Origin: Roseithermus sacchariphilus
GTDB lineage: Bacteria; Bacteroidota; Rhodothermia; Rhodothermales; MEBIC09517
Assembly (NCBI GenBank): GCA_003285105.1
Contig: CP030158.1
Location: forward strand, 4,078,449-4,142,448
Reading direction: 5' to 3'
Length of the DNA stretch: 64,000 nt
Positions 1 to 55,224 of the stretch are shown piece after piece. A program made the position numbers and the translations under genes. The notes under the pieces were generated by a model. The model did no database searches. It was given only the letters and a program-made list of their open reading frames with translations, and had not been told where the DNA came from. Within the stretch, counting starts at the first letter, position 1; each line of letters begins with the position of its first letter.

Positions 1-760
1 CCGACGGAGCCCACCACTACACCCTCCAACTCGCCACCTCCGCCGACTTCACCACCCTGACGGTCCAGCAAACCGTCTCGGGCACGTCGTCTACGATCGA
101 CGCGCTCGACCATGGCACGACGTACTTCTGGCGGGTGCGGGCCTCCGGCGACGGCGGCGACGGCGCCTGGTCCGCCACGCGCTCCTTCTCCACGCAGCCC
201 GCGCCTCCGGCCGCACCCCTCCCCGCCGCCCCGCGCAACGGCGCCTCCGGCCTCAACCCCTCCGTCTCCCTCCAGTGGAACCCCGTCCCCGGCGCCCGCT
301 CCTTCCGCGTCCAACTCGACCGCTCCCCCGCCTTCGACAACCCCCTGCTCGACCAGTCCACCTCCGCCACCTCCCTCACCACCCCCGCCCTCGACCTCGC
401 CGCCACCTTCTTCTGGCGCGTGCAGGCCTCCGGCGACGGCGGCGACGGCGCCTGGTCCGAAACCTGGTCCTTCTCCACACGGCCCGCGCCTCCGGCCGCC
501 CCCTCGCTCCGCGACCCGGCCGACGCCGCCACCGCCCTGCCCACCTCCGTCGCCTTCTCCTGGAACCCCTCCGACGGAGCCCATCACTACACCCTCCAAC
601 TCGCCACCTCCGCCGACTTCTCGGTCATCGCCGCGGGGCAGACGACCACCGACACCCACGCCACCGTGAGCGGCCTGACCTACGAAACGACCTATTTCTG
701 GCGCGTGCAGGCCTCCGGCGACGGCGGCGACGGCGCCTGGTCCGCCACGCGCTCCTTCAC
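1..760 (+). repeat. 570-bp intragenic direct repeat (two FnIII modules)
   Basis: Bases 1-50 match 571-620 with one difference, and bases 141-188 match 711-758 exactly. Both pairs are offset by 570 bp, which is 190 codons or two fibronectin-III modules. A third copy of the GDGGDGAWS-encoding stretch lies at 426. The pattern is that of recent tandem duplication within the gene. The array probably continues left of the window. Confidence 0.85.
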
Positions 761-3425
761 GACCGAGGCGGCTCCTCCGCCTCCGCTCCCCCCGCCGGCC
801 ACCCCCACGCTGACGGCGCCGTCCGACGGCGCCCGGGACATCCCGCTGAGCACCACGCTGACCTGGAACCACGTCAGCGGAGCAGACACGTACGACGTTC
901 AGGTAGCCACCACGCCCGGCTTCGACGTCCTGTGGATCGACGAGGTCCATGTGACGAACCCCGTTCTGGAGATCGACGGGCTCGATCATGCGACGACGTA
1001 CTACTGGCGCGTCCGAGCCCACGGCGAGGGCGGCTCCAGCGACTGGTCCGGCGCATGGCACTTCACCACCCGGCCCCCGCTACCGTCCCCCCCGGTGCCC
1101 ACCGCACCCACCGACGGCCTCACCGTCCTCGACAGCGAGGTATCGCTCGCCTGGACACCGGTGGACGGCGCGACCGCCTACGCCGTCGAGGTCGCCACGA
1201 CGGTGGATTTCACGACGCCGATGGTGCAGCAGGAACTCACGGAGACCACCCTGGTCGTGCGCGGCCTGGAGGCAGGCACCACGTATCGCTGGCGCGTCCG
1301 GGCGCGCAACAGCAGCGGCTGGAGTGCCTGGTCGCCCACGCAGCACTTCACGACGGCAGAAGAAGCCGCCAAGGCCCCGAAGCCCGGCAGGCCGCACCCG
1401 ATCCGCCCCCTCGACCGGAGCACGGGGCACGCCCCCGATGACACCCGGCTCGCCTGGTCGGCGACGGAAAACACGGCCGCCTACACGGTACAACTCGCCG
1501 AGGAGGCCACCTTCCTCGTCGTCGCGGAATACACCGTCACCGACACCACGCTGGCCGTCGAGGGGCTTGCCCACGAAACCACGTACTTCTGGCGGATCCA
1601 GGCACACGGGCCGGGCGGCAGCGGTGACTGGTCCGACCCCTGGACGTTCACCACGGCCCCGCCGCCCCCGCCGGACGCCCCCGTCCTCGAAAGCCCGACC
1701 GCCGGAGCCACCGATCAGCCGCTGACGCTCGTGCTGACGTGGCACGTCGTCGCGGGAGCCACGGCGTACGACGTGGAGATCGCCCCCGATGCGGCCTTCC
1801 GTTCCGTCACCGTGCGTCGCACCGCTCTCACGACGACGTCGCTCACGGTGTCGAATCTGGCCGAGGCCACGACCTACCACTGGCGCGTGCGGGCCTCCGG
1901 GCCTACGGGGACGGGCGACTGGTCCACCCCGGCGCGGTTCACCACCCGACGCCTGCCGCCGGCCGCACCCACCCTGGAGGCTCCCGACGATGCCGCCGTC
2001 GACCTGCCGCCACAGGTCACCCTGCGGTGGACGCCGGACGCCCGCGCCACCACCTACACGGTGCAGGTCGCCGCCACCCCGAGCTTCACGAGCCTTCGCT
2101 ACGAGCGTGAGGTGACGACCCCACACGCCGAGATCGACAGCCTGGACTTCGACGCCACCTACTACTGGCGGGTGCGGGCCACCGGACCGGGTGGCGCCAG
2201 CGACTGGTCGGCCATCCGGGTCTTCCGGACGGCCACGCTGGCCTCGCTCCTGCCCGAGGCGCCGATCCTGACGGACCCGGCCGATGACCGCACCGACGTC
2301 CCCACGTCGGTCGTGCTATCCTGGCAGGTCACCACCGGAGCCCAGACCTACACGGTCCAACTGGCCACGGACGACGCCTTCGAACAGATCGCCGTCCAGC
2401 GAACCGGCGTTTCGGGCAACACCCTGTCAGTGAGTGGCCTCGCCTACGGCACCACCTACTTCTGGCGCGTGCGCGGCCACCGGAGTGCCGCCGCCGGCCC
2501 CTGGTCGGAGGCGCGGCGGTTCACCACGGCACCGGCACCGCCGCCCACGCGGGCGCCGCGCCCGGCCTCGCCCACGCACGAAGCCCGCGAAACCCCCACC
2601 ATCCTGGAATTCTTCTGGTCCGCACTCGACGGGGCCGAAACCTACTCCTTCCAGCTCTCCCGCCACGCCGACTTCCGATCGGTCGTGGCGCAGCAGAGCA
2701 ACCTGGATCGCACCACGCTCATGATCCTCGGCCTCAACCACGCCACCACGTATTTCTGGCGGATCCGGGCCCACAACGCGAGTGGCACCGGGCCCTGGTC
2801 GGACGTGCAATCCTTCACGACGGTAGCGGCCTTCCAGTCCCCCCGTCCCACGGCGCCGGTGTTGCTGACGCCGGTGCATGAGGCCCGGGACGTGCCGGGG
2901 GCGATCACCCTCACCTGGCGATCCGTCTCGGGCGCGACGGCCTACCAGTTCGAGCTATCCACGGACTCGACCTTCCAGGCTCTGGCGGCGAAGCAGACCC
3001 ACCTGACCGCGCCGGCCGTCGAGGTGGCGGACCTGGAGAAAAGCACCCGGTACTACTGGCGGGTGCGCGCGAAGAGCCCGCAGGGGGACAGCCCCTGGTC
3101 GCTCATCTTCTCCTTCGTCACGTCCACCACCGTCGCCACCGAAGGCGGACCGGACCTGCCCGAGACGCTGGAATTGCTTCCGGCCTTCCCCAACCCGTTC
3201 GATCACGGCACCACCCTCATGCTGCGCCTGCCCGAACCGGGGCACGTCACGGCCCGGGTCTACGATGCGCTCGGGCGCGAAGTGGCTACGCTGGCGGATC
3301 GAGCGATGCCTGCCGGCATCCATCGCCTGCAATGGCTCGCGGCCGGGCAGGGCAGCGGGCTGTACTTCTGCCGCGTGCAGGTCGGCAACGTCGTGCTGAC
3401 GCGCCGCATGATGCGCCTGCGCTGA
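1..3425 (+). CDS. T9SS-sorted multi-fibronectin-III surface protein (5' end cut by window edge)
   Basis: The reading frame is open from base 3 to the TGA at 3423-3425, so the start lies left of the window. At least ten complete fibronectin type III-like modules of about 95 residues follow one partial module. Each carries a W..V..A..Y.(V/F)Q(L/V)A strand and a TTY(F/Y)WRV...G...WS...F(T/S)T signature, joined by proline-rich linkers. The last ~90 residues (from about base 3150) form a T9SS type A sorting domain: a PAFPNPFDHGTT start, V.DALGREVATL, and a final ...GLYF.RV......R.M.LR. Export and anchoring by the type IX system is therefore expected; no T9SS machinery gene is in the window. Function is probably adhesion or scaffolding, as no catalytic domain is visible. 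Modules at the left end are nearly identical in DNA sequence, which indicates recent internal duplication. Confidence 0.93.
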   Translation, partial: DGAHHYTLQLATSADFTTLTVQQTVSGTSSTIDALDHGTTYFWRVRASGDGGDGAWSATRSFSTQPAPPAAPLPAAPRNGASGLNPSVSLQWNPVPGARSFRVQLDRSPAFDNPLLDQSTSATSLTTPALDLAATFFWRVQASGDGGDGAWSETWSFSTRPAPPAAPSLRDPADAATALPTSVAFSWNPSDGAHHYTLQLATSADFSVIAAGQTTTDTHATVSGLTYETTYFWRVQASGDGGDGAWSATRSFTTEAAPPPPLPPPATPTLTAPSDGARDIPLSTTLTWNHVSGADTYDVQVATTPGFDVLWIDEVHVTNPVLEIDGLDHATTYYWRVRAHGEGGSSDWSGAWHFTTRPPLPSPPVPTAPTDGLTVLDSEVSLAWTPVDGATAYAVEVATTVDFTTPMVQQELTETTLVVRGLEAGTTYRWRVRARNSSGWSAWSPTQHFTTAEEAAKAPKPGRPHPIRPLDRSTGHAPDDTRLAWSATENTAAYTVQLAEEATFLVVAEYTVTDTTLAVEGLAHETTYFWRIQAHGPGGSGDWSDPWTFTTAPPPPPDAPVLESPTAGATDQPLTLVLTWHVVAGATAYDVEIAPDAAFRSVTVRRTALTTTSLTVSNLAEATTYHWRVRASGPTGTGDWSTPARFTTRRLPPAAPTLEAPDDAAVDLPPQVTLRWTPDARATTYTVQVAATPSFTSLRYEREVTTPHAEIDSLDFDATYYWRVRATGPGGASDWSAIRVFRTATLASLLPEAPILTDPADDRTDVPTSVVLSWQVTTGAQTYTVQLATDDAFEQIAVQRTGVSGNTLSVSGLAYGTTYFWRVRGHRSAAAGPWSEARRFTTAPAPPPTRAPRPASPTHEARETPTILEFFWSALDGAETYSFQLSRHADFRSVVAQQSNLDRTTLMILGLNHATTYFWRIRAHNASGTGPWSDVQSFTTVAAFQSPRPTAPVLLTPVHEARDVPGAITLTWRSVSGATAYQFELSTDSTFQALAAKQTHLTAPAVEVADLEKSTRYYWRVRAKSPQGDSPWSLIFSFVTSTTVATEGGPDLPETLELLPAFPNPFDHGTTLMLRLPEPGHVTARVYDALGREVATLADRAMPAGIHRLQWLAAGQGSGLYFCRVQVGNVVLTRRMMRLR

Positions 3426-3486: not shown

Positions 3487-3765
3487 TTACGGGCCGTCGA
3501 CGCGTTGCACCAGCCCCTCGCTGCTGAGCTCCTCGAAAAAGCCCGCTACGTACTCGAGGGCATCATCCCGCTCGATGTCATAGACCTCCGTGAGGCGTTC
3601 GGCGATGTCCTCCACCGTCGCCCCCTGCTGGAAGGCATCCCAGATGAACGTGCCCGTCTCGTTCAGGGAATAGTACTGCTTGGTCTTCATGTGCAGCAGG
3701 ACCGATTCCGACTCGTCCAGGCTGGTGAACGACACGTCGGGGTGCGGGGTGTACTGAGCAGCCAT
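3487..3765 (-). CDS. PqqD-family small protein (orphan)
   Basis: This 92-residue protein has the PqqD/RiPP-recognition-element pattern: a first strand with SFTSLDESESVLLHMKTKQYYSLNETGTFIWDAF, here split as a VLLHMKTKQYYSLNETG core plus a FIWDAF helix, and a C-terminal winged helix (VEDIAERLTEVYDI, FFEELSSEGLVQ). PqqD domains bind leader peptides of ribosomally made, modified peptides; free-standing copies serve lasso-peptide and related systems as the B1 protein. The start at 3765 was chosen because GGGAGGAG lies just upstream; the longer frame to 3825 adds 20 unrelated residues. No B2 protease, cyclase or radical-SAM gene is adjacent. The nearest candidate substrate in the window is the small peptide gene at 8758-8874. 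Confidence 0.85.
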   Translation of the reverse strand: MAAQYTPHPDVSFTSLDESESVLLHMKTKQYYSLNETGTFIWDAFQQGATVEDIAERLTEVYDIERDDALEYVAGFFEELSSEGLVQRVDGP

Positions 3766-4004: not shown

Positions 4005-5741
4005 TCAGGCTTCGTCCTCGATGCGGAGATACCCCATCTCGACGAGCGCGTCGAAGACCTGCTGCGCGCTCTCCTCGATGGTCTGCTCGGCCGTCTTCAC
4101 GACGATTTCCGGGTTTTCCGGCACCTCATAAGGGTCGTCGATCCCCGTGAAGCCTTTGATGATCCCCGCACGCGCCTTGGCATAGAGCCCCTTGACGTCG
4201 CGGGCCTCGCAGACCTCCAGCGGCGTGTCTACGAACACCTCGATGTAGCCGCCAACGTCCGAGATCCGCTGGCGGTTGGCCCGGCGGTCCGCCTCGTACG
4301 GAGCAATCGGCGCGCAGATGGCGATGCCGCCGTGCTTGGTGATCTCGCTGGCGACGAAGCCGATGCGCTGGACGTTGATCGAGCGATCCTCCCGGGAGAA
4401 ACCCAGCCCTTTGGACAGGTGCGTGCGCACGACGTCGCCGTCGAGCAGCGTCACCGGGCGCCCGCCCAGCTCCAGCAGCTTCACCATCAACGCATTCGCC
4501 ACGGTCGACTTGCCCGAGCCGGAGAGCCCGGTGAAGAACACCGTGAAGCCCTGCTTGTGCCGGGGCGGGTGTGTGCGGCGCAGCTCCGCCACGACGTCCT
4601 CGTAGGAGAACCACGAGGGGATCTCCGCGCCCTCGGCGAGCATCTGACGCAGCTGCGTGCCCGAGATCATCTTGAACTCGTCACCGCGCTGCTGCACCTC
4701 GTCGATCGGCTCGTAGGCGTCACGCTCGGGCACATAGACCATCAGGCGGAAGGGCACCATCTGAATGCCCAGCTCGTCCTGGTGTGCGATGACGAGTTCC
4801 TGCGCATCGTAGGGGCCGTAGAACGGCGTTCCGTCCGTGTCTTTGCCGGGGCCGGCGTGATCCCGCCCCACGATGAAGTGGGTGCAGCCGTAGTTTTTGC
4901 GGATGATCGCGTGCCAGACGGCCTCCCGCGGGCCGCCCATCCGCATGGCCAGCGGCAACAGGCTGATCGTCGCGCGTCCTTCGGGGTAATGGCGGAGCAG
5001 CTTTTTGTAGCACCGCACGCGCGTGAAGTAGTCCACGTCGCCCGGTTTGGTCATGCCCACGACCGGGTGGATCAGCAGATGGCCGCCCACCTCCTCGGCC
5101 GCCCGGTCCGTGAGCTCCTTGTGGGCCCGGTGCATCGGGTTGCGCGTCTGGAACGCGACGACCTTATCCCAGCCGTTGGCCTCGAACAGGGCCCGCATTT
5201 CCCGGGGCGTCCGCCGCAGGTCGTGGAAGTCGTAATGGATCGGCAACTGGATGCCTTCCAGCGTCCCGCCGACGTAGTGGGAGCCGGCCTCGTTCATCAG
5301 GTAGTGGACGGCCGGATGCCCCTGGCTGGTCGTGCCGAAGACCTTTTCGGCCTCGCGCTGCTTGTCCGGTTGCCACACGTCGCTGACGGTCAGCACGGCC
5401 AGCAGCAGCCCGGTGGGATCGCGCAGCGCCACCTTGTCGCCCTCGCTGAGCGACGTCGCCGTAGCTTCGTCGACGTCGAGCGTGATCGGCATCGGCCAGA
5501 GGTCCCCGCTGGTGAGGCGCATCTCCTCGACCACCCGGTCATAATCGGCCTGTCCGAGGAACCCGCGCAGGGGAGAGAAGCCGCCGTTGAGCAGCAGTTC
5601 GATGTCGCAGAGTTGCCGTTCCGTCAGCGTGATGGAGGGGTAGTGCAGGGCCGCCTCTCTGGCCGCCTCCAGCGCATCGCCGGTCAGCATCAGGTCGCAC
5701 AGTTCCCCGCCATGGGGTTTGATCAGTTCGGTTGAGGTCAT
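4005..5741 (-). CDS. sat/cysC: Bifunctional sulfate adenylyltransferase / adenylylsulfate kinase
   Basis: The 578-residue protein makes APS from sulfate and ATP and then phosphorylates APS to PAPS. The N-terminal part (about 1-390) is a homo-oligomeric ATP sulfurylase with QTRNPMHRAH at 198-207 and GRDHAG at 292-297. The C-terminal part (about 395-578) is an APS kinase with P-loop GLSGSGKST at 405-413, LLDGD at 432-436 and FSREDRS at 448-454. Fused Sat-CysC proteins occur in several thermophiles and Bacteroidota. No reductase (cysH, cysI) is adjacent. With the neighbouring UDP-sugar genes, PAPS could supply sulfotransferases for a sulfated polysaccharide, but general cysteine synthesis is equally possible. 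Confidence 0.97.
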   Translation of the reverse strand: MTSTELIKPHGGELCDLMLTGDALEAAREAALHYPSITLTERQLCDIELLLNGGFSPLRGFLGQADYDRVVEEMRLTSGDLWPMPITLDVDEATATSLSEGDKVALRDPTGLLLAVLTVSDVWQPDKQREAEKVFGTTSQGHPAVHYLMNEAGSHYVGGTLEGIQLPIHYDFHDLRRTPREMRALFEANGWDKVVAFQTRNPMHRAHKELTDRAAEEVGGHLLIHPVVGMTKPGDVDYFTRVRCYKKLLRHYPEGRATISLLPLAMRMGGPREAVWHAIIRKNYGCTHFIVGRDHAGPGKDTDGTPFYGPYDAQELVIAHQDELGIQMVPFRLMVYVPERDAYEPIDEVQQRGDEFKMISGTQLRQMLAEGAEIPSWFSYEDVVAELRRTHPPRHKQGFTVFFTGLSGSGKSTVANALMVKLLELGGRPVTLLDGDVVRTHLSKGLGFSREDRSINVQRIGFVASEITKHGGIAICAPIAPYEADRRANRQRISDVGGYIEVFVDTPLEVCEARDVKGLYAKARAGIIKGFTGIDDPYEVPENPEIVVKTAEQTIEESAQQVFDALVEMGYLRIEDEA

Positions 5742-5930: not shown

Positions 5931-6917
5931 CTATTTCCCCAAAGATTCCTTGAAATAGGCGAGGGTACGGCGCAGGCCTTCCTGGCGGCTCACCGTCGGC
6001 GTCCACCCCAGCTTCTCCCGCGCCTTCGTGATGTCCGGCTGCCGCACCTTCGGATCGTCCGCCGGCAACGGCTTGTACACGATCCGGCTCCCGCTCCCCA
6101 CCAGCGACACCACCTCCTCCGCAAACGCCTTGATCGTCAGCTCCTCCGGGTTCCCGATGTTCACCGGCTCCACCTCCTCGCTCATGAGCAGCCGGTAGAT
6201 CCCTTCCACCAGATCGTCCACGTAGCAGAAACTCCGCGTCTGGCTCCCGTCCCCGAACACCGTCAGATCCTCCCCCCGCAGCGCCTGGCTCATGAACGTC
6301 GGCAGCGCACGCCCGTCGTCCAGCCGCATCCGCGGCCCGTACGTGTTGAAGATCCGCACGATGCGCGTCTCGACTCCGTGGTAGCGGTGGTAGGCCATCG
6401 TCATCGCCTCGGCGAACCGCTTCGCCTCGTCGTAGACCCCGCGCAGCCCCACCGGGTTGACGTTGCCCCAGTATGTCTCTCGCTGCGGGTGCTCCAGCGG
6501 ATCGCCGTAGACCTCGCTCGTCGAGGCCAGCAGAAAGCGCGCTCCCTTGGCCTTGGCCAGCCCCAGCGCCTTATGCGTCCCCAGCGCCCCCACCTTCAGC
6601 GTCTGGATGGGCAGCTTCAGGTAGTCGATCGGCGAGGCCGGGCTGGCGAAGTGCAGCACGTAGTCGAGCGGCCCCTCGACGTAGATGTAGTTCGTCACGT
6701 CGTGCTCGATCAGGCGGAAGCCCTCGCGCCCGATCAGGTGCGCCACGTTCTCCGGCGAGCCGGTGATGAAGTTGTCCATGCAGATGACCTCGTGGCCTTC
6801 GGCCAGGAAGCGCTCGCACAGGTGGCTGCCCAGAAAGCCGGCCCCGCCCGTGATGAGCGTGCGCGGCCGACGCGGCGTGGCGGAGGTCGTTCCCGTGGAT
6901 TCGGTGGAAGGAGACAT
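5931..6917 (-). CDS. uxs: UDP-glucuronate decarboxylase (UDP-xylose synthase), extended SDR
   Basis: This 328-residue extended short-chain dehydrogenase converts UDP-glucuronate to UDP-xylose with bound NAD. It shows the Rossmann motif GGAGFLGSH at 24-32, the S/T-E pair in STSEVYG at 132-138, and the catalytic YDEAK at 162-166. NTYGPRM and the [14 protein letters not shown] segment are characteristic of the UXS subgroup rather than GalE. It lies 87 bp downstream of ugd on the same strand, so the two probably form an operon making UDP-glucuronate and then UDP-xylose for surface polysaccharide. Confidence 0.93.
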
Positions 6918-7004: not shown

Positions 7005-8405
7005 TCAGACCTGGAGGCCGAGGGTCACCTCGCGGACGGCCCCGTCCCCTTCGGGCGAGGGGGCCACGTGCGGGCGGCCGATGGAGTGATATTCGAAGCC
7101 GGCTTCGGCCATGCGCCAGGGGTCGTAGAGGTTACGCCCGTCGAAGATGACGGCGTCTCCCGAGGCCTCGCGGAGCAGACGGTGCATCCGGGCGAAATCG
7201 GGGCGGCGGAACTCGGCCCATTCCGTGCAGATGACCAGGGCGTCGGCGCCCTTGAGGGCCGAGTAGGCATCGGCCATGTAGGCGATGTCATCGCCCAGCA
7301 CGGCGCGGGTCGTCTCCATCGCTTCCGGGTCGAAGGCCGTGATCTCGGCGCCGGCGTCCAGCAGGCGGCGGATGACGACGTGGGCCGGGGCCTCGCGGAC
7401 GTCGTCGGTGTTCGGCTTGAAGGCCAGCCCCCACACGGCGATGCGCTTGCCGTCCAGCGAGCCGCCGAAGCGGGCCAGGATCCGGTCGGCCAGCACGGCG
7501 CGCTGGCGCGCGTTCACACCCAGCACGGACTCCAGGATCTCGAAGCGATAGCCGTATTCCTGTGCCGTGCGAGCCAGCGCGGACACATCCTTCGGGAAGC
7601 ACGACCCGCCAAAGCCGATGCCGGGGTAGAGGAACTGCTTGCCGATGCGGCTGTCCAGCCCGATCCCGATGCGGACGTGATCGACGTTGGCCCCGACGCG
7701 CTCGCACACGTTGGCGATCTCGTTCATGAACGTGATCTTCGTCGCCAGCATGGCATTGGCCGCATACTTCGTCATCTCGGCCGACGCTTCGTCCATCACC
7801 AGGATGGGGTTGCCCTGCCGCACGAAGGGCTCATAGAGCTGCGTCATGATCTCGGCGGCCTTCTCGCTGCCGGTGCCGATGACTACGCGCTCGGGCTTCA
7901 TGAAGTCGTCCACCGCCACCCCTTCCCGCAGGAATTCGGGGTTGGAGACGACGTCGAACCGCTCGCCGGCGACGAGCCCGTGGCCTTCCAGCACCGCCCG
8001 TACCCGGGCCGCCGTCCCGACCGGAACGGTGCTCTTGTTGACGACGACGCGGTAACCGATCCCCGGATCGGCGGCGAGCAGCGCACCGATGCGGTCGGCC
8101 ACGCCGAGGACGTACGACAGGTCGGCCGAGCCATCCTCGGCAGGCGGCGTGGGCAGAGCCAGGAACAGCACGTCACAGCCTTGCACCGCCTCGGCCAGTT
8201 CCGTGGTGAAGTGCAGGCGGTCCTCCCGCAGATTCCGGCGGAAGAAGACCTCCAGGCCCGGCTCGTAGATGGGCAACCCGCCGCTGCGCAGCTTCTGCAC
8301 CTTGCCCTCGTCGATGTCCACGCACGTGACGGTATTCCCCATTTCGGCAAAGCACGTGCCCGTCACAAGCCCGACGTATCCCGTCCCGATGATTCCGATG
8401 TTCAT
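7005..8405 (-). CDS. ugd: UDP-glucose 6-dehydrogenase
   Basis: This 466-residue protein oxidises UDP-glucose to UDP-glucuronate in two NAD-dependent steps. The NAD-binding GTGYVG is at residues 7-12, [15 protein letters not shown] at 86-99, the substrate-fold SNPEFLREG at 154-162, and the catalytic cysteine in [10 protein letters not shown] is C269. Length is normal for the family. It precedes uxs, so its product feeds the next enzyme directly. A leader of about 350 bp without genes separates it from the hairpin and small peptide gene upstream. Confidence 0.97.
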
Positions 8406-8590: not shown

Positions 8591-8643
8591 CAGGGATGGC
8601 GACCGCGTCTGTCGTCCGCCGGCAGACGCGGTCGCCATCCCTG
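8591..8643. repeat. Perfect 21-bp inverted repeat (stem-loop)
   Basis: The left arm 8591-8611 and right arm 8623-8643 are perfect reverse complements, separated by 11 bases. The hairpin lies between the minus-strand small peptide gene (stop at 8758) and ugd (start at 8405). No T-tract follows on either strand, so it could be a factor-dependent terminator, an RNA stabiliser or a binding site. The rest of 8406-8757 holds no gene that I can support. Confidence 0.9.
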
Positions 8644-8757: not shown

Positions 8758-8874
8758 TCAGGGAGTCGGTGCCGGTAAGACACCGAATCCCGAGAATCCG
8801 GGTGTATTGGCCGTGATCCGATCCAGAGAACCCAGCGACTCGATGCGAGGGGCCAGGAAGGGTTTCTTTTTCAT
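8758..8874 (-). CDS. Small peptide with RiPP-type (lasso-like) leader; candidate precursor
   Basis: This ORF of 38 codons plus stop starts at ATG 8874-8872 and is preceded by GAGG seven bases upstream. Its N-terminus, FLAPRIESLGSLDRIT (residues 6-21), fits the leader pattern (Y/F)xxPx(L/I)xxxGxxxxxT recognised by PqqD-like B1 proteins: F6, P9, I11, G15 and T21 are at the expected spacings. The C-terminal half is Gly/Pro-rich (GFSGFGVLPAPTP, residues 26-38). It has no Asp or Glu that could close a lasso macrolactam and no Cys, so it is not a classical lasso core. It lies 51 bp downstream of the secreted NHL-type gene on the same strand. An orphan PqqD protein is encoded 5 kb away. Real expression and modification are inference. 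Confidence 0.55.
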   Translation of the reverse strand: MKKKPFLAPRIESLGSLDRITANTPGFSGFGVLPAPTP

Positions 8875-8925
8875 GATAGTGCCTCGTCTGTACATGCTCA
8901 GAGGGTGAAATCCACGGATAACGGC

Positions 8926-10413
8926 TTACTTGAGCAGCGTCACCGTGCGCGTGGCACGGAACGACTCGCCCCGGGCCTGGATGAGATAGGTCCCGCTCGT
9001 CAGGCCATCCCCCCGGAAGGCGAAGGTGTGCGCGGTGCCGGCCTCCAGCCAGCCGTCGTGCAGCGTGGCCACGGCCCGGCCCAGCACGTCGAACACGGTG
9101 ATCGTGACCGGCTCGCTCTGAGCCAGCGTCAGCGTGAACTGCGTCTGCGGGTTGAAGGGGTTGGGGTAGGCCGCCGAGAGCTGGTAGCGCTCCGCCACCT
9201 CGATGGTGACCTCCACCTCGGGGCTGTATTCATAGGCCCCGTCGAAGTCCACCTGCTTGAGGCGGAAGACGTGCCGGCCGGCCGGCAGATCGGCCAGCGC
9301 ATACTCGTAGCGCTGGGCCTCCGTGGTCGTGCCCCGCCCTTCGACGAAGGCCACCGGCTCGAACGAGGTTCCGGTACCGCGCTGCACTTCGAAGCCCGCG
9401 TTGTTCGTCTCGGACGCCGTGGTCCAGGTCAGCACCACCCGATCTCCGTCGGCCAGGGCCTCGAACGACACCAGCTCGACCGGCAGCACCGGGAACGCCG
9501 CGTTCGACTTGAGCACGGCGAAGGTGCTGTACGAAGATGACACCCCGAACATCATGCTGCCGAGCGCATCGAACGCGATCCCCGTGGGACGCGGGTTGCC
9601 GCTGAGCAGATAGGCATCGTTCACCGTACCGTCCGACTCCACGTACGTGATGTAGCGGTTCTGGTAGTCGGAGACGTAGAGCAACTGCGGATACCCGGAG
9701 TCATCGGCGGGGAAGAGCTGGTCGGCGTTGCTGTCGCCCAGGCGCACCGGGCCGAACGTCAGGAACCAGGGCTGGAAGCCACTACGGTGGGCACCCAGCA
9801 TGGCAAAGGAGGGCTGCGTGACGGTCGTACCCCCGCCCGCAATCATGCTGATCGTCGCACCCGACGTACCGGTCGTGTTGGCCACATACAGGTTGCCGGC
9901 CACGTCGAACGCCATCCCGCTGGGAGCGGTCAGGCCGGTGATAGTGCCCTGCGCGGTGCCGTCGGCCAGGCTGAACCGCTCGACCTCGCCGGCCGCCATC
10001 TCGGACACGTAGAGCAGCCCCCCGGAAATCGCGACGTCGAACGGCCCCGACAGGCCGGTCTGCCACGTGCTGTAGCTGGGCGCCGTCAACACGTCGGTCA
10101 CCTTGACGATGGTGCCATTGCCCTTGTTGGCGACGTACAGATCCCCCGTGGCCCGGTCCACGGCGAGGCCGTTGACCTCATCGAAAAGACCGGACTTCAG
10201 GGAGGTGACGATCGTACCGTCGGGCTGAACCACGAGCACAGAGTCCTTCTGTGCCATGTACAGATGATCGGTTGCATCGACATCCAAGTCGTACACGACC
10301 CCATAGCCGGGGCCGACGAAATAGTGAAAGTCGCTGAGGGTCTGCGCAACCGCCGGCGCACCGGCGGCCAGACTCCACAACACGGCGACAAAGAGGGCGG
10401 TGTAGCGTTTCAT
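8926..10413 (-). CDS. Secreted NHL/beta-propeller-like protein with T9SS sorting domain
   Basis: The 495-residue protein begins with a signal peptide (MKRYTALFVAVLWSLAAGAP, cleavage near AVA-QT). Residues about 30-320 contain repeated propeller-like blades with NGLAVDRATGDLYVANKG, SGMAFDVAGNLYVANT and PTGIAFDALGSMMFGV patterns, as in NHL/SMP-30/ScyD-type proteins. Residues about 325-410 form an Ig-like segment (LPVELVSFEAL..., WTTASETNNAGFEVQRG) often found before sorting domains in this phylum. The end (YPNPFNPQTQF, VFDVLGRAVATL, SGTYL) is a T9SS type A sorting domain. Ligand unknown. It may be cotranscribed with the small peptide gene at 8758-8874. Confidence 0.88.
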   Translation of the reverse strand: MKRYTALFVAVLWSLAAGAPAVAQTLSDFHYFVGPGYGVVYDLDVDATDHLYMAQKDSVLVVQPDGTIVTSLKSGLFDEVNGLAVDRATGDLYVANKGNGTIVKVTDVLTAPSYSTWQTGLSGPFDVAISGGLLYVSEMAAGEVERFSLADGTAQGTITGLTAPSGMAFDVAGNLYVANTTGTSGATISMIAGGGTTVTQPSFAMLGAHRSGFQPWFLTFGPVRLGDSNADQLFPADDSGYPQLLYVSDYQNRYITYVESDGTVNDAYLLSGNPRPTGIAFDALGSMMFGVSSSYSTFAVLKSNAAFPVLPVELVSFEALADGDRVVLTWTTASETNNAGFEVQRGTGTSFEPVAFVEGRGTTTEAQRYEYALADLPAGRHVFRLKQVDFDGAYEYSPEVEVTIEVAERYQLSAAYPNPFNPQTQFTLTLAQSEPVTITVFDVLGRAVATLHDGWLEAGTAHTFAFRGDGLTSGTYLIQARGESFRATRTVTLLK

Positions 10414-55144: not shown

Positions 55145-55224
55145 AGCCGCCGACGGTTTCGATTGTCGCGGCTGCCTCGTAGCATGAACCCCGGTCCCGA
55201 CGCACTCGCCATCCCCTCTGCTCC

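Follow-up and report, generated by a model that had tools for sequence, protein, structure and literature searches.

A T9SS-adjacent leader-peptide family in Rhodothermales and a candidate precursor of a linear RiPP

The peptide gene and its neighbourhood

The window, the whole 64 kb stretch of DNA analysed here, lies within a single contig of 4.81 Mb. Its minus strand, read from 8874 to 8758, encodes the 38-residue peptide MKKKPFLAPRIESLGSLDRITANTPGFSGFGVLPAPTP followed by a stop codon, while the plus-strand frame across 8758-8874 is broken by a stop codon. A Shine-Dalgarno-like GAGG (8882-8885, minus strand, read from the sequence) lies seven nucleotides before the ATG, and residues F6, P9, I11, G15 and T21 stand at the spacings of the lasso-type leader motif. 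If cleavage is lasso-style, two residues past the Thr of the F6 to T21 motif, the peptide divides into a leader, KPFLAPRIESLGSLDRIT-A, and a predicted tail or core, NTPGFSGFGVLPAPTP. Residues 22-38 include no Asp, Glu or Cys, the last acidic residue lies no later than residue 18, and the C-terminus is …APTP, ending in Pro and not in Ser.

Upstream, an NHL beta-propeller protein with a T9SS type A sorting domain is encoded at 8926-10413 (minus strand; TIGR04183, 30.5 bits, cut-off 23), and 51 nt separate its end from the peptide ATG. No ortholog of this propeller was found among 245 genomes of the class. Between the peptide gene and the next gene lies a perfect 19-bp inverted repeat (8593-8641, not assigned to a strand) forming a strong hairpin (z = -6.4 for its region); it has no U-tract, and its role as a standard terminator is unsupported. 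A half-site of the repeat with three mismatches occurs at 55197-55215. Beyond the hairpin the minus strand carries, in order, a UDP-glucose 6-dehydrogenase-like gene (7005-8405), an NAD-dependent sugar-nucleotide epimerase/dehydratase (5931-6917), an ATP sulfurylase-APS kinase fusion (4005-5741) and a lasso-type PqqD (B1/RRE) gene (3487-3765), 5 kb from the peptide gene on the same strand. Convergent with the PqqD gene is a plus-strand gene for a fibronectin-III repeat protein with a T9SS-type C-terminal domain (135-3425). The sugar and sulfate genes are given as context, since their membership in the system has not been shown, and they may possibly be unrelated to it. Because 5 kb, these three genes and a strong hairpin intervene, the peptide and PqqD genes need not share an operon. 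No kinase, B2 peptidase, NTP transferase or macrolactam cyclase was found across the 64 kb window, so maturation enzymes would have to act from distant loci.

An earlier sequence-only reading had claimed the position of the 38-residue ORF, its Shine-Dalgarno site, the motif spacings, the tail without Asp, Glu or Cys, the T9SS-secreted propeller gene upstream and the perfect hairpin downstream. All of these claims held, the strand being minus, and the PqqD gene at 3487-3765 had been missed.

Conventional searches gave little for so short a product. The peptide has no NCBIfam or Pfam match and is not detected by NF033521 (lasso_leader_L3). A similarity search with the 38-mer in 114 genomes of the same order returned only noise scores (best E 0.036) and no close ortholog, because just some 20 residues are conserved; two of its weak matches (loci L025 and L028) turned out later to belong to the family. 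A strict motif scan of 363,605 bases yielded five ORFs: besides the window ORF, four that lie close to other PqqD genes. When the window peptide was left out of a 15-sequence leader HMM, the model still recovered it at 21 bits (E=1.5e-4) from a pool of 10,898 small ORFs, in which the best non-family ORF had E=0.06. The existence of the gene is part of the genetic evidence regarded as shown, and the ORF is very likely to be genuine and not a product of chance.

A leader-peptide family behind T9SS genes

With leader profiles, about 30 relatives (31 in the tallies given here) come to light across Rhodothermales, and matches are restricted to this order among 395 genomes of the phylum. The precursors escaped a relaxed motif scan of PqqD loci and emerged only through the gap between tandem T9SS genes of RRE loci, where the first short leader peptides were spotted, and by profile. 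A seven-sequence profile gave nine more peptides in the loci examined, and a 16-sequence profile run over 245 genomes of the class recovered the remaining members. The start codons of the relatives were picked by eye. Two further copies lie in the genome of the window, at C1:530 kb (L047) and C1:213 kb (L145), and both keep a terminal Ser. Leader-bearing relatives with variable tails, which had been proposed as a check on the ORF, thus exist. Conservation of F6, P9, G15 and T21 had also been expected; P9 never varies, and conservation reaches at least 90% of the family for each of F6 and T21, but G15 is not conserved.

The position of the gene is characteristic of the family, and both the family and its T9SS-adjacent position are shown. 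Almost all members start 15-112 nt behind a gene for a protein with a T9SS C-terminal domain, and for 27 of 31 such a gene lies no further than 200 nt away on the upstream side. The training sequences of the profiles came in part from loci chosen for their closeness to RREs or T9SS genes, so that only counts from profile-only peptides are free of this bias; here the upstream T9SS gene is present in 16 of 17, compared with 3.2% of control ORFs from the same loci. This count leaves out L220, for which no start codon was chosen, and L209 and L214, which lie at contig edges. The binomial p (2e-23) overstates independence because many of these 17 peptides come from a few genera and are orthologous to one another. 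The check proposed earlier, whether the peptide stays downstream of the propeller gene, has a mixed outcome: the family stays behind a T9SS C-terminal-domain gene, not behind this propeller.

Peptide and RRE also occur together, which is likewise shown. The peptide is present in 16 of 19 RRE-positive genomes and in 4 of 95 RRE-negative ones; outside the training genomes the corresponding figures are 6 of 9 and 3 of 94 (p=5e-6, made optimistic by kinship). For the five closest orthologs, all from one other genus and with the window copy excluded, dN/dS is 0.06-0.24 over leader plus tail where only unsaturated dS is used, so that in these relatives the two together are under purifying selection. 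A terminal Ser is found in 21 of 31 family peptides, against 13% of control ORFs, and the recurring tail pattern in the relatives is [FYW]x[FW]S-COOH. The predicted core is only six residues long in many of them (e.g. GSFNFS). The window peptide meets all three family criteria, namely a match to the leader profile, a position at most 200 nt behind a T9SS gene and a window-type RRE in the genome.

Several members depart from the common form. Ring-capable cores are present in 4 of 31. Cores of this kind, as at L204, L168 and L220 (e.g. GPGLGTEDAVIF..., GPGMTGTQDAVIF...), leave no sharp line between the family and genuine lasso precursors; an asparagine-synthetase-like gene adjoins the L220 peptide. 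In L205 and L219, which we take to be R. marinus-like, a cyclase-like gene, an ABC transporter and a second PqqD lie a few kb from a C-terminal-Ser peptide that ends in …TGGSFNFS and has too short a core for a lasso. In many loci the peptide has a second conserved T9SS protein after or before it (L047 9612-11468; L145 7572-9221; and homologs); homologs occur in 34 of 245 genomes of the class, and its predicted fold (pLDDT 70) matched only multidomain beta-sandwich proteins and was uninformative.

The RRE and candidate maturation enzymes

The window RRE is a 92-residue protein that starts MAAQYTPHPDV after ggagg. It scores 71 bits against PF05402 and 57 bits against NF033536 (lasso_PqqD_Bac), below the cut-off of 80 for the latter. 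Its model (pLDDT 90) matches TbiB1-leader complex structures at TM 0.81-0.92, and the RRE fold is regarded as shown. Only two PqqD proteins of the genome exceed the Pfam cut-off, this one and that of a lasso-type cluster; the sole window-type RRE lies beside the window peptide and not the other two copies. In LppB, D70 forms a hydrogen bond with the Tyr of the leader, and N33 keeps the Pro kink in place (PMC13381572); these residues align with Tyr72 and Asn35 of the window RRE. Each of the four cyclase-linked RREs has Asp at the D70 position and all 15 window-type RREs have Tyr, Gln, His or Ser there, while the Asn of the Pro-kink contact is kept in all RREs compared, cyclase-linked and window-type. 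This co-variation of the pocket is shown, and loss of the Tyr-binding Asp is expected because the leaders carry Phe. The change in the pocket alongside the change from Tyr to Phe in the leader allows the published recognition rule to be tested on a second natural case.

Orthologs of the window RRE occur in 18 other genomes of the same order (31-52% identity). An HprK-like kinase is present in 14 of 20 RRE loci examined, and an NTP_transf_5 protein, a Transglut_core3/B2 peptidase and T9SS C-terminal-domain proteins recur in the ortholog loci; the B2 protein of L104 passes NF033537 (73.7 bits, cut-off 33). At least seven of these loci have a family peptide within 5 kb, and window-type RRE loci are without a lasso cyclase. 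In the genome of the window the kinase, B2 and NTP transferase lie outside the window at distant loci. The kinase gene is intact at C1:1509157-1510140 and a B2-like gene lies at C1:3726713 (55.9 bits, cut-off 26); that both are intact is shown. The catalytic H, K, D and D of HprK are invariant in all complete sequences, including the copy in this genome, and His-Lys-Asp-Asp residues have been reported for PadeK-type kinases (PMC9266682).

A lasso-type cluster is present elsewhere in the same genome (L048, C1:1998000-2015000). It contains a PqqD with the Tyr-binding Asp, a lasso cyclase (NF033535, 583.6 bits, cut-off 525), the peptide MKQYDTPRLIEYGEVHSLT..., an HprK-like protein, an ABC transporter and an NTP transferase; Transglut_core3 was not found there. 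A PqqD search of genome contigs returned mostly distant Elusimicrobia and Clostridia. In Elusimicrobia a conserved peptide of about 34 residues (KKYQKPRVKSHGKISEVASAFKP) directly follows the PqqD gene (L082 7555-7877; L084 770-1092; L085 9647-9969), and these peptides apparently form another leader-only family.

Interpretation and relation to known systems

By analogy, the evidence leans modestly towards the window peptide serving as precursor for a linear and probably phosphorylated RiPP within a T9SS-linked, cyclase-less family of Rhodothermales. The leader FxxPx[LI]...T would dock on the PqqD/B1-type RRE of 3487-3765, which would hand the precursor to the HprK-like kinase and the B2 leader peptidase, as in the systems of paeninodin and of linear polyphosphorylated peptides (LPPs). 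For PadeB1, leader binding at about 5 nM and presentation of the leader to B2 have been described (PMC5067487); the site that PadeK phosphorylates is the precursor's C-terminal Ser (PMC9266682); and LPP systems phosphorylate without a cyclase (PMC13381572). Cutting by B2 two residues past the motif Thr would release a short linear peptide, to which the NTP transferase may add further decoration. In most relatives the C-terminal Ser would be the kinase target. By contrast, the window copy is unusual in having no such Ser and in having its other enzymes in trans; since the Ser is missing, Thr24, Ser28 or Thr37 may be modified instead, or the peptide may stay unphosphorylated. Binding, cleavage, phosphorylation, the linear nature of the product and its link to T9SS cargo are all inferred, and there are no transcript, binding or mass data. 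A bolder reading, which is doubtful, is that of a distinct linear RiPP class of Rhodothermales functionally coupled to type IX secretion, in which each peptide would be made with one T9SS cargo and modified by a shared RRE, HprK-like kinase, NTP transferase and B2, the product being attached to or travelling with the cargo or a surface polysaccharide anchor.

The sequence-only reading left open an unusual RiPP substrate or a reused leader. Of the two, the RiPP substrate has the better support, and reuse is not excluded. If the leader were reused without maturation, the product would be a regulatory, chaperone or competitor peptide that binds the RRE and acts on T9SS cargo expression or on the RRE. 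The very short cores of many relatives, the presence of an RRE without any maturation enzyme at the window locus and the tighter pairing of the peptide with T9SS genes than with enzymes speak for this. The conserved tail of the relatives, the recurrence of kinase and B2 genes in RRE loci and the retention of intact copies of both in this genome speak against it, and reuse appears unlikely. It is also improbable that the peptide is a decayed relic of a C-terminal-Ser precursor. Its tail is atypical and lacks the terminal Ser that the two other genome copies retain, and the RRE is the only system enzyme nearby; however, the leader, start codon, ribosome site and 51-nt spacing are all intact, the only window-type RRE of the genome adjoins this copy, and other intact family members also lack the Ser.

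Two further explanations carry very little weight. A chance ORF with a chance motif would be consistent with a length of only 38 codons and with the absence of a close ortholog or a family-model match, but it is rejected because the leave-one-out profile recovers the peptide, which also lies in the family-typical place behind a T9SS gene with an RRE gene 5 kb away. An ordinary lasso precursor would be suggested by the lasso-type leader motif and B1, the ring-capable cores of a few family members and the genuine lasso cluster elsewhere in the genome. The B1-binding leader (Y/F/W)xxPx(L/I)...T is indeed present, but the Asp or Glu required at core position 7-9 is absent. There is no macrolactam acceptor, since no Asp or Glu follows residue 18, so that the sequence already contradicts a lasso, and the 64 kb window has no macrolactam cyclase.

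Several described systems come close to the preferred reading, a cyclase-less linear RiPP. The systems for phosphorylated lasso peptides of paeninodin type (PadeA/B1/B2/C/K; PMC5067487, PMC9266682) have in common a B1 RRE that binds the leader and presents it to B2, an HprK-like kinase with His-Lys-Asp-Asp and a precursor with a C-terminal Ser, a substrate criterion that the window peptide does not meet. Window-type loci differ in having no cyclase, no ring acceptor in most cores, a leader Phe instead of Trp or Tyr, and a T9SS linkage. HPr-rel-A systems (TIGR04352/TIGR04353) also pair an HprK-related kinase with a PqqD-family chaperone, but the kinases reach 44-47 bits where the cut-off is 200, and the PqqD proteins 20-32 where it is 35. 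The leader logic of NF033521 and NF033536 is shared; the sister peptide at C1:530003 scores 19.0 with NF033521, exactly the cut-off, whereas the window peptide escapes it. Because the current family models tested miss these genes, the family is invisible to routine annotation. The literature searched, with most subscription journals outside its scope, gave no paper covering both type IX secretion and PqqD.

The closest counterpart is the LPP class (Popov et al. 2026, PMC13381572), which has been described as occurring only in Bacillota. Both have a discrete RRE, an HprK-like kinase, an NTP transferase, a leader of FxxP/YxxP type, no macrolactam cyclase and frequently a polysaccharide-gene neighbourhood. 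An SpI-like leader peptidase, an MsbA-like exporter, the leader YxxPxVLxHQxIxFETxxS and an internal core Ser are features of the LPPs, while the Rhodothermales family has a B2 peptidase, an FxxP leader, mostly a C-terminal Ser and a T9SS gene directly upstream. The LPP leader is not matched, as the family has FxxPx[LI] and no HQxIxFET. A discrete RRE and a matching leader are both present, without binding data, and the HprK-like kinase and NTP transferase stand beside orthologous RREs and, in this genome, at distant loci. It is likely that the peptide family was previously unrecognised and that its system is analogous to the LPPs of Bacillota. If so, the fixed position behind T9SS cargo genes would be the first hint of a partner, and the cyclase-less set of Rhodothermales would extend the LPP-type class to another phylum.
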